Below are positions 2,542 through 5,940 of a DNA stretch of 43,290 nt, piece after piece; within the stretch, counting starts at the first letter, position 1, and every line of letters begins with the position of its first letter. Origin of the DNA: an archaeon HR04. GTDB lineage: Archaea; Thermoproteota; Nitrososphaeria; Nitrososphaerales; Nitrosocaldaceae. Location of the stretch: positions 1 through 43,290 of the forward strand of contig BEHG01000001.1 in NCBI GenBank assembly GCA_002898655.1. Direction: 5' to 3'. Below the pieces are notes generated by a model, which saw only the letters and a program-made list of their open reading frames with translations, searched no databases and had not been told where the DNA came from. A program made the translations under genes and the position numbers.

Positions 2542-2710
2542 TGGTGGGGCCGCGGGGATTTGAACCCCGGACCGCCAGCGTTCCAGCATGTGAGCATTGA
2601 GCATGGTCCCCAGGTTCACCACCATCCTTCATCTGCCAGCATATTAGTTCTGGTATCCTAGACCAAGCTCTCCGCCAGCATGCATATAGCATGCTGTAGA
2701 CGACGGCCCC
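2542..2710 (-). tRNA. tRNA-Pro(GGG) with three introns, encoded CCA
   Basis: The acceptor stem GGGGCCG (2710-2704) pairs with CGGCCCC (2552-2546). The T arm CGGGG-TTCAAAT-CCCCG is perfect, and A73 plus CCA are encoded (2545-2542). The cloverleaf closes only if three segments are removed: intron 1 at 2697-2670 (28 nt, after position 13), intron 2 at 2649-2615 (35 nt, between 30 and 31) and intron 3 at 2607-2581 (27 nt, canonical 37/38). The exons then give a 76-nt tRNA with anticodon stem CCAGC/GCTGG, loop CTGGGGC, anticodon GGG and G37, which fits proline. Each intron can form a bulge-helix-bulge-like core with cuts after the second bulge base, and intron 1 also forms a perfect 8-bp internal stem. 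The gene lies just 7 bases past the stop of the kinase-like gene, with its promoter inside that gene. The isotype is less certain than the tRNA itself. Confidence 0.85.
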
Positions 2711-2717
2711 TTAGCAC

Positions 2718-3710
2718 TCATCTACAAGCACTACTCTCTTTATAAAATTTTAAACCAAGTAATGTAAGGAGTTCATTAAACCTCTCCTTACACATATCCA
2801 ACCTATACATCCTCAAGGCATCAACTATCCTACTCCTATCCCTGCATAGACCTAGCGTATCTGCAACTGCTCTGCCCTTCCCAAACAATAGGTAGTTTGC
2901 TGCAGATGTTACATTTGTTACCCTCCTGCTCATGCTTGAACTCTCAAAGTCTATTATGCATGCCTTGCTTCCTATTATCACATGCCTATCCATCCTACCC
3001 AACTCCCCATGGTCAAGCCCTATGCTATCGAGGAGGAAGCACTGCTCTAGTATATCCTTCAAGATAGACTTTACGTATGTATAGTTATTGCAATTATCTT
3101 TATTGGCATAATAGTTGTGGTTCCCTGCTACTCTATCCTTTGCCCTATCACTACTACTATCACTATTACTACTATCGCTACCATTCCCAAATTCCCTAAC
3201 AAACTCAATCATATGCATCCCATCTATCAACTCCATAGCAAGTAGGTTCCTGCTGTATGCTATCAGCCTTGGACCAATACCAACACCATTAGCTATGGCA
3301 AGCATCCTTGCCTCATGCTCCATGCTTATCCTACCTGAATCTGTCCTCATCATCTTGAGTGCTACAACCATCTCATTGCAAGCATCATCTAAACTCCTGC
3401 TGCTAATGTTATTACTACTACTCCTCCTACTACTACTACCATTCCTTACACTATATTTTACACTGCTATTCTTATCAAGTACTGCCTTTACAACTATGCT
3501 GGTACAGCCTTTGCCTAGTATATGCAACCCATTTACAATACTCTTACCTTCAAACAATATCCCCTTTACTCCAATGGACTCAATCTCCTTCACCCTATCC
3601 TTTGCAATCTCTACACTGCTGCTAGGATACACTACTATATCTATGAATGGTTCTCTGAGCAGATGCTCGATTGGTACTATGCTACTCTGCTGCAAATGCA
3701 AACCTATCAT
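2718..3710 (-). CDS. Kinase-like protein of the archaeal predicted Ser/Thr kinase group
   Basis: This 330-residue protein resembles the small archaeal predicted Ser/Thr kinases (COG2112 type). There is a Gly-rich GKGCTSIVVKA loop near residues 67-77, a VALKMM lysine strand near 116-121, a catalytic-loop-like HGELGRMDRHV and an IDFESSS metal-binding strand replacing DFG. Two disordered inserts interrupt the fold, one Ser/Arg/Asn-rich between the loop and the lysine strand and one Ser/Asp/Asn-rich after the hinge; both come from AGT/AGC-type triplets (near 3398-3446 and 3138-3190). The start overlaps the end of the CCA-enzyme gene by 29 bases, so the two are co-transcribed and translation may be coupled. 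Substrate unknown. Confidence 0.75.
   Translation of the reverse strand: MIGLHLQQSSIVPIEHLLREPFIDIVVYPSSSVEIAKDRVKEIESIGVKGILFEGKSIVNGLHILGKGCTSIVVKAVLDKNSSVKYSVRNGSSSRRSSSNNISSRSLDDACNEMVVALKMMRTDSGRISMEHEARMLAIANGVGIGPRLIAYSRNLLAMELIDGMHMIEFVREFGNGSDSSNSDSSSDRAKDRVAGNHNYYANKDNCNNYTYVKSILKDILEQCFLLDSIGLDHGELGRMDRHVIIGSKACIIDFESSSMSRRVTNVTSAANYLLFGKGRAVADTLGLCRDRSRIVDALRMYRLDMCKERFNELLTLLGLKFYKESSACR
2738..2754 (-). promoter_or_regulatory. TATA element of the tRNA gene, inside the upstream ORF
   Basis: On the minus strand the sequence TTTAAAATTTTATAAAG is centred about 35 bases upstream of the first tRNA base. It lies within the last codons of the kinase-like gene, so the tRNA can be transcribed on its own. 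Confidence 0.55.
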
Positions 3711-5211
3711 TTACAAGCATATACTCTACTATCTTCTTTACTGCAGATGCTACTGCAACAACATCATCATCCCTGCTACTACTCTTCATTAACATCTCTA
3801 CCTCCTCCCCTGCATATATCTTGAACCCATTACTCCTTATATCATCCATCAGCCCTTTACTTATCCCACTACCCTCTAGATTACTCATTATGTTATCTAT
3901 CAACTGCCTAGCATTATGGAACCTTCTCTCTGCCAATGCTAGCAACCTACCATCCTCATTGCTTATCCATAGCAGCATATCCCTATTCTTTGAGATGAAC
4001 CTTTCAGCATTATTAGCATCGAATACCTTTGGGCCATGCTTAAGCACTATACGTGGTATACTTTGTGATTCTAGCATGAATGATATGAATGCATTTGAGC
4101 CATCTGTATGACATGTGTATCTTAAAACCTTGAAGCTGTTGATGGAGAGTTGCTTTGCTATAGCACTTGCACTACTCTTCAACTGCCCCCATATTATATC
4201 TTCACTCCTTGGAGAGTGCTTGAAGTGCACTACAAGGATGTTCCCAACCTTGCTATGATCTATCATCCTTTGATAATCAGCAGTAGTGTATGTGAAGTAG
4301 TTGATGCTAGGACTCCTCAGGAAGTTCCTTGCTGAGAGTATGAACCTACCAACGCTCTCATATGATATTGCTAAGCCTAGGTTCCTGCTTGTATCAATTG
4401 GATCAAGTATTATTATAGGGCTATTACCCATCTGCATCCCTCTTACTGCTCTAGCATCTACGCTTCTACTGTTGTTGCTACTACCATCACTACTACTGCT
4501 ACTACTACTACATCTGTTACTGCTACCATCTATACCATACTCTCCCCTATACATTGCTGAATCTACTGCTATAACCTCCTTCTCCCTCCATCTAGATGCA
4601 CCCTTTAGTGTGTTGAGGAATGAGCCATACTTGAGTATAAGAACCTCACATACATAGCCAGAGAACCCCTCCACTGCTATCTCTGCACCGTAAACGCCTA
4701 TCACCTTCATGAACCTCTTGAGTAACCTAACCTCCCTCCTCTTTGCATCATCCAATGCTTTGAGCATGTACTCTGTATGGTAAGGGCTCCTATCTGCTGC
4801 ACTCCTCCACCTCCCTATCTCAACATCATAGCATGGCACAACATTTACCCTAACCCCATCCATAACTGCTTCAACGTATGGATGCTGTGCATATCTAAGG
4901 TAAGGGTTGATATCATGTAACGCCCTTAAACCAACATCCATTGCTACTGCTTCAAACCTCTCCTCATCCACATCTGGCCTTATCTTCAGGAATATATCGA
5001 TATCAACACTCTCAGCAAGCCAGGTATCCTTTGCATAAGAGCCAACGAGAACAACACCGCTAACCTCTCTATACCCTACTGCAATCTCCTTGACCCTCTT
5101 GCTATATATATCTGCTATATACTCTACCCTTCTCCTATCATCTATGCTTGGTTCAACCAACCTGTACGCTTCCCTGATAACCCCATCAAGCTCAGATGCT
5201 GACATGTACAA
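3682..5211 (-). CDS. cca: CCA-adding enzyme, archaeal class I tRNA nucleotidyltransferase
   Basis: The enzyme adds or repairs the CCA end of tRNAs. The nucleotidyltransferase signature GSYAKDTW is at residues 57-64, followed by the D70-x-D72 carboxylate pair. The central AADRSPYHTEYM motif (138-149) is also typical of class I enzymes. At 509 residues it is longer than the usual 440-460, mainly because of a Ser/Asn-rich insert at about 229-252 encoded by AGT/AGC triplets. The position that normally carries the third catalytic Asp (consensus VDVVPCY) reads VNVVPCY here, with Asn123. The gene follows the 2'-5' RNA ligase gene by 26 bases and overlaps the kinase-like gene. Family assignment is firm; the effect of Asn123 is unknown. 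Confidence 0.93.
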   Translation of the reverse strand: MYMSASELDGVIREAYRLVEPSIDDRRRVEYIADIYSKRVKEIAVGYREVSGVVLVGSYAKDTWLAESVDIDIFLKIRPDVDEERFEAVAMDVGLRALHDINPYLRYAQHPYVEAVMDGVRVNVVPCYDVEIGRWRSAADRSPYHTEYMLKALDDAKRREVRLLKRFMKVIGVYGAEIAVEGFSGYVCEVLILKYGSFLNTLKGASRWREKEVIAVDSAMYRGEYGIDGSSNRCSSSSSSSDGSSNNSRSVDARAVRGMQMGNSPIIILDPIDTSRNLGLAISYESVGRFILSARNFLRSPSINYFTYTTADYQRMIDHSKVGNILVVHFKHSPRSEDIIWGQLKSSASAIAKQLSINSFKVLRYTCHTDGSNAFISFMLESQSIPRIVLKHGPKVFDANNAERFISKNRDMLLWISNEDGRLLALAERRFHNARQLIDNIMSNLEGSGISKGLMDDIRSNGFKIYAGEEVEMLMKSSSRDDDVVAVASAVKKIVEYMLVNDRFAFAAE

Positions 5212-5237: not shown

Positions 5238-5846
5238 TTATTTGCTATCCAACCTGCTGGATGCCTTTACACTGAACATATCCGTATATATAGGTCCTTC
5301 ACGCATCAGATCGCTCTTCTTCACCTTTATCTCATCCAGCGTATCGCTACCAAAGTATGTACTGCTATGCTTGCCTATGGCAGTTGCAAGAGCATCACTA
5401 CCACCAACATCTTCACTTCTCCTAGACCTTCTACTGCTATTACCTTCCTTAACTCTAAGTAGTGTGATATGTGGTGTGAACTGCTTATCACTCTTGAAGC
5501 CTAAAGGCTTGAGCCTATCCTCAACCCCCATTGCTATATCTGTGAGTTTAGATGTAGTATTGGGATCAACACCAACCCAGATGATCCTAGGATGCTTCAT
5601 ACTAGGGAATGCTCCCACACCTCTATACACAACGTTCACTGGCTCAAAGATCATCTTTGAGAGCCTCTCCTTTACCCTCTCAAGCATGCTAGAATCTATC
5701 TCACCAAGGAAGAGCAGGGTGAAGTGCAACTGATCCTTACTCACTGGTTTTGCATTTAACCCTAGGTTCATGAACTCTCTTTGCACTTTAAGCATATTGG
5801 CTATTGAGCCCTCATCCTTTACATCCATTGCAATAAACACACGCAT
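5238..5846 (-). CDS. thpR: 2'-5' RNA ligase / RNA 2',3'-cyclic phosphodiesterase
   Basis: This is a 2H phosphoesterase of about 202 residues, acting on 2',3'-cyclic phosphate RNA ends (and known from the family for 2'-5' ligation in vitro). The two family motifs are present: HFTL in the N-terminal half (LHFTLLFLGEI) and HITL in the C-terminal half. The start MRVFIAMDV is typical; a second ATG six bases earlier at 5852 is possible. A TATA-like CTAAAATATAG lies about 25 bases upstream of 5846. An Arg/Ser-rich insert follows the second motif. It is the first gene of an apparent operon with cca and the kinase-like gene, linking it to tRNA 3'-end metabolism. Confidence 0.9.
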   Translation of the reverse strand: MRVFIAMDVKDEGSIANMLKVQREFMNLGLNAKPVSKDQLHFTLLFLGEIDSSMLERVKERLSKMIFEPVNVVYRGVGAFPSMKHPRIIWVGVDPNTTSKLTDIAMGVEDRLKPLGFKSDKQFTPHITLLRVKEGNSSRRSRRSEDVGGSDALATAIGKHSSTYFGSDTLDEIKVKKSDLMREGPIYTDMFSVKASSRLDSK

Positions 5847-5940
5847 GATCATACTTCTTTCTATCTAAAATATAGCCCTAACTTACCTACCTATCTACCT
5901 ATCTACTATGTAAAGGCTATAATAATGGTTGCAGAGAGGT

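Follow-up and report, generated by a model that had tools for sequence, protein, structure and literature searches.

Does a stretch of DNA in which standard tRNA finders see no tRNA nevertheless encode a working one, and if so, how would the interrupted transcript be made whole? The window analysed here is a stretch of 43,290 nt of contig BEHG01000001.1 from archaeon HR04, and an earlier note on it had proposed that a tRNA-Pro(GGG) gene, split by three small introns, lies on the minus strand at 2710-2545. The same note took the host for a likely thaumarchaeon, which agrees with its genus, Candidatus Nitrosocaldus. Nitrosocaldus is a heat-loving, ammonia-oxidising archaeon. From the evidence set out below we hold with great confidence that the locus is a functional Nitrosocaldus tRNA-Pro(GGG) gene, the precursor of which carries three bulge-helix-bulge (BHB) introns that would be cut by EndA and joined by RtcB.

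Structure and detection of the gene

Excision of 2697-2670 (28 nt), 2649-2615 (35 nt) and 2607-2581 (27 nt) leaves a 76-nt tRNA-Pro(GGG) with discriminator A73, GGGGCCGTCGTCTAGCTTGGTCTAGGATACCAGCCTGGGGCGCTGGCGGTCCGGGGTTCAAATCCCCGCGGCCCCA, and on the minus strand the exons and introns read exactly at the coordinates and lengths that had been proposed. Exon 1 (2698..2710) supplies tRNA positions 1-13, GGGGCCGTCGTCT, with the same letters in all 7 genomes compared, and is followed by intron 1 (2670..2697) at site 13/14 in the D arm. Exon 2 (2650..2669, AGCTTGGTCTAGGATACCAG) runs from A14 to G30, intron 2 (2615..2649) divides the anticodon stem at 30/31, exon 3 (2608..2614) holds positions 31-37, C CTGGGG, with the anticodon GGG and G37, and intron 3 (2581..2607) occupies the canonical site 37/38. 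The remaining positions, 38-73, lie in exon 4 (2545..2580), which encodes the 3' strand of the anticodon stem, the variable loop, the T arm, the acceptor and the discriminator A. In the spliced molecule the acceptor pairs 7/7, the D stem 4/4 (two G-U), the anticodon stem 5/5 and the T stem 5/5. A CCA is encoded in the genome directly after the discriminator (2544-2542, minus strand); it is not conserved, with TCA at that place in one congener (L038). About 29-36 nt upstream of tRNA position 1 stands a TATA-box-like TTTATAAA (2739..2746, minus strand), a putative promoter element, and a stretch resembling it also precedes the Pro(GGG) gene in congeners.

ARAGORN found no tRNA in the unspliced window and none when only intron 3 was excised. 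With all three introns excised it returned tRNA-Pro(ggg) with a full cloverleaf, bearing out the claim of a 76-nt cloverleaf with anticodon GGG and G37. Rfam gave no match for the interrupted gene at the gathering score, and a whole-genome search with RF00005 matched only its 3' part, at 16.1 bits. Ordinary annotation misses such genes, as the raw window yields no tRNA. The N. cavascurensis genome paper reports 29 tRNA genes in a 1.58-Mb genome (PMC5797428), against 40 tRNA-model hits, some of them overlapping or duplicate, in the complete Nitrosocaldus genome G001 (1,577,284 bases); if G001 is that species, interrupted tRNA genes are probably missing from its annotation. Many other tRNA genes of G001 also require intron removal, several with apparently two introns each.

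Conservation of the introns and their joins

The decisive evidence for the introns is their conservation, which we rank above the shuffling result given below. Six Nitrosocaldus genomes (the host's and five others) were compared together with one genome of a sister genus, G006, and introns occur at the same three Pro(GGG) sites in 7/7. The six Nitrosocaldus genomes agree at every one of the 76 exon bases but not in their introns, which span 28-33 nt (intron 1), 25-47 nt (intron 2) and 20-27 nt (intron 3). The corresponding introns of G006 measure only 22, 13 and 12 nt; the two shortest (L040, G006:C33), at 30/31 and 37/38, are without a real inner helix. Sites 13/14, 30/31 and 37/38, as originally assigned, are also confirmed by genes that have no introns at all: in a Methanomethylicota MAG (L102), a Thaumarchaeota MAG (L146) and a Nitrososphaerales MAG (L175), an intronless Pro(GGG) of nearly the same sequence as the host exons spans the three sites uninterrupted and displays the same joins. 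Alignment with free intron jumps, using as references the tRNAs that ARAGORN called in the loci compared, returned the same three introns when applied to the G001 gene.

Bulge-helix-bulge motifs and splicing order

In each intron a central helix can be formed between the last four exon bases ahead of the 5' bulge and the four intron bases that lead into the 3' bulge. For intron 1 this is TCGT(2703-2700)/GCGG(2675-2672), with bulges CT|A and AG|A, an 8-bp inner stem and no outer helix (HBh'-like). Intron 2 has TACC(2655-2652)/GGTG(2620-2617), bulges AG|A and AA|C and a 4-bp inner stem without a strict outer helix, and intron 3 has CTGG(2613-2610)/CTGG(2586-2583), bulges GG|A and AA|C and an inner stem that is offset. 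The cores and the 8-bp stem are thus as the earlier note had drawn them. In 21/21 introns (7 genomes x 3) the central helix pairs 4/4 and is flanked on each side by a 3-nt bulge. Compensatory change is seen in one lineage, G006, where the second pair of the intron 2 central helix, which has one exonic and one intronic partner, has gone from A-U to G-C, and where one pair of the intron 1 inner stem has likewise gone from C-G to U-A. When the intron letters were shuffled, 4/4 central pairs at all three sites arose in about 2 per 100,000 trials.

None of the three introns has the strict hBHBh' motif with both an outer and an inner helix. Introns 1 and 2 take the relaxed HBh' form, in which a central helix and inner stem are present and the outer helix is absent, while the outer helix of intron 3 is the anticodon stem, reduced to 1 bp in the full precursor as against 5 bp once intron 2 has been removed. 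The suggestion that intron 2 has a weak outer helix, and that splicing order may therefore matter, is well founded on both counts. Because intron 2 splits the anticodon stem, it most likely leaves before intron 3, and splicing is likely to be ordered accordingly. According to PMC8450103, archaeal tRNAs can have as many as three introns, and some of these lie so near each other that one may need to be removed before the motif of the next can form. For such ordered splicing the Nitrosocaldus gene would be a well-defined natural example, as its intron 2 interrupts the outer helix of intron 3.

Predicted folding was a poor guide to these motifs. In ViennaRNA ensembles of the Nitrosocaldus precursors the central helix of intron 3 was sampled at ~0% and that of intron 1 at only 5-46%, and local folds of introns 2 and 3 of the window gave pairings other than the BHB motif. 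The local fold of intron 3 in G006 is exactly the BHB motif. Since the intron 3 motif goes unrecovered in Nitrosocaldus and is recovered exactly in its relative, folding energies are weak evidence here.

We propose that the gene would be transcribed as a precursor carrying all three BHB introns, that a heteromeric (alpha-beta)2 EndA would cut every motif behind nucleotide 2 of both its 3-nt bulges, and that RtcB would then ligate the exons. The relaxed motifs of introns 1 (13/14) and 2 (30/31) would be recognisable without the tRNA fold, and intron 3 (37/38) would behave as a canonical anticodon-loop intron with the anticodon stem as its outer helix.

Splicing enzymes

A heterotetrameric splicing endonuclease has been linked to non-canonical introns (PMC4090602; PMC4033280), and two PF01974 endonuclease genes are present in most Nitrososphaerales genomes searched. 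Read by eye, one EndA of G001 keeps the Tyr, His, Lys active-site pattern and the other is without the His and Lys; judging by these residues, the latter is likely a structural subunit. The closest solved chain to the catalytic protein is 3p1z_B, a tRNA-splicing endonuclease, and this subunit aligns over nearly its full length with crenarchaeal EndA chains (PDB 3p1z, 3ajv, 2zyz), whereas the second, non-catalytic PF01974 protein is only distantly similar to them. The host's own assembly, which is 68% complete, holds one of the two EndA genes, the catalytic one. RtcB was found in 7/7 genomes, and the complete genomes among the congeners encode it together with both EndA subunits, the catalytic and the non-catalytic. 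The catalytic EndA gene and rtcB lie ~3 kb apart in both G000 (G000:C24:7890-12307) and G001 (G001:C1:472370-476774).

Pro(GGG) introns across Nitrososphaerales

Beyond the family of the host the same isoacceptor varies widely. In several other Nitrososphaerales families the Pro(GGG) gene has no interruption and nearly the sequence of the host exons. G008 and G034 have a single intron in the D arm, again at 13/14; G017 and G032 have a pair, at 30/31 and 37/38; and within family f10 many genomes have just the one at 30/31. The recurrent border GGTGA(A/G)|CCTGGGG suggests, from its letters rather than from a tree, that the 30/31 intron may be old in the order. For G032, G013, G009 and G025, intron boundaries initially placed by hand yielded poor central helices and were set aside; in G032 a boundary with the exon ending GCCAC, likewise chosen by hand, was better. 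A further Pro(GGG) candidate (L298, G013:C102) shows roughly three insertions, which seem to lie in the D arm, the anticodon loop and the variable loop.

The most heavily interrupted gene comes from a single assembly of another Nitrososphaerales family, G022 (L328, G022:C30:38739-38916, minus strand), where four BHB introns of 49, 16, 17 and 20 nt are predicted at 15/16, 20b/21, 30/31 and 37/38, each with a 4/4 central helix. Spliced in silico, it gives 76 nt that ARAGORN calls tRNA-Pro(ggg) and that equal the tRNA of the window up to the variable loop. On the strength of this prediction we consider it reasonably probable that the limit of three introns per archaeal tRNA fails in Nitrososphaerales. 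The phrase 'four introns' was not found in the literature on archaeal tRNA that was searched, which consisted mostly of papers outside subscription. If the four introns are real, an old 30/31 intron would have been the core around which further introns accumulated across the order, with the three of Nitrosocaldus marking one stage of that process. A single isoacceptor that ranges from no intron to four within one archaeal order would provide a series for studying the gain and loss of tRNA introns.

Alternative readings

It could be argued that the locus is a decayed tRNA pseudogene, or the remnant of a mobile-element attachment site, that merely resembles an interrupted tRNA, as might be expected of a gene that standard tRNA finders miss. 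However, the exons do not differ among the six species of the genus, and the cloverleaf they form remains perfect; this conservation largely refutes such an origin. The compensatory changes in the introns speak against it too, as does the complete congener genome G001, where the tRNA hits include a single Pro(GGG) gene. We regard decay as extremely improbable and the functional, three-intron gene as the reading to retain; this single-copy gene is probably essential. Within that reading one boundary can be drawn in two ways. Introns 2 and 3 can each be joined in only one way and the join of intron 1 slides by one base, A2697 and A2669 being interchangeable, so that a cut one base further 3', after A14, would move the site to 14/15 and leave the mature RNA unchanged. 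We place the site at 13/14 because the BHB geometry fits that cut, which gives the 4/4 central helix and two 3-nt bulges in 7/7 genomes, and we think the shifted position unlikely.

A different question is whether the 30/31 intron has been kept across families for a function of its own, such as guiding a modification or controlling the order of maturation. Its site and border recur in families f1, f10, f12, f14 and f17, which speaks for such a function, yet its length (13-47 nt in f1 alone) and loop sequence vary and several families are without it. Such a function seems to us slightly less likely still than the shifted cut.

Relation to known archaeal tRNAs and genomic neighbours

A tRNA-Pro(GGG) with three introns is of a type already known from published archaeal tRNAs. 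Triple-intron precursors have been described for tRNA-Glu(UUC) of Pyrobaculum calidifontis and tRNA-Pro(UGG) of P. islandicum (Sugahara et al. 2008, as relayed in PMC4390854). These Thermoproteales genes resemble the present one in having three small BHB introns in one gene, one of them also a tRNA-Pro, but belong to another archaeal lineage and have other anticodons. Candidatus Caldiarchaeum subterraneum has an intron-rich tRNA set, with canonical and non-canonical introns and several in some tRNAs (PMC3293823); its multi-intron genes are those for Leu(UAA), Glu(CUG, as printed) and Thr(GGU), not Pro (PMC3293823). Thaumarchaeota tRNAs with multiple non-canonical introns, modelled in tRNAscan-SE 2.0 (PMC8450103), share lineage and intron type with the Nitrosocaldus gene; in the passages on them the Pro(GGG) gene and its conservation in Nitrosocaldaceae are not singled out. 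The earlier note had called triple-intron tRNAs rare and known mainly from Thermoproteales, which made one in a thaumarchaeon worth remarking. The triple introns in a thaumarchaeon stand, whereas the claim of rarity is to be softened, since multiple non-canonical introns in Thaumarchaeota are already published (PMC8450103) and the 30/31 intron of Pro(GGG) is widespread in the order.

The present analysis adds that the three introns are kept together in all members of the family compared, that those of the sister genus can be as short as 12 and 13 nt, and that the splicing order lends itself to testing. It also points to a 30/31 intron that seems to be old within Nitrososphaerales and to the G022 gene, with four predicted introns against a published maximum of three.

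As to the surroundings of the gene in the window, a 330-aa open reading frame (2718-3710) between the tRNA and the gene for a CCA-adding enzyme had no Pfam match. Two genes for tRNA-end enzymes lie upstream of the tRNA on the same strand: at 3682-5211 that of the archaeal CCA-adding enzyme, and at 5238-5852 that of a LigT/2'-5' RNA ligase-like phosphoesterase.
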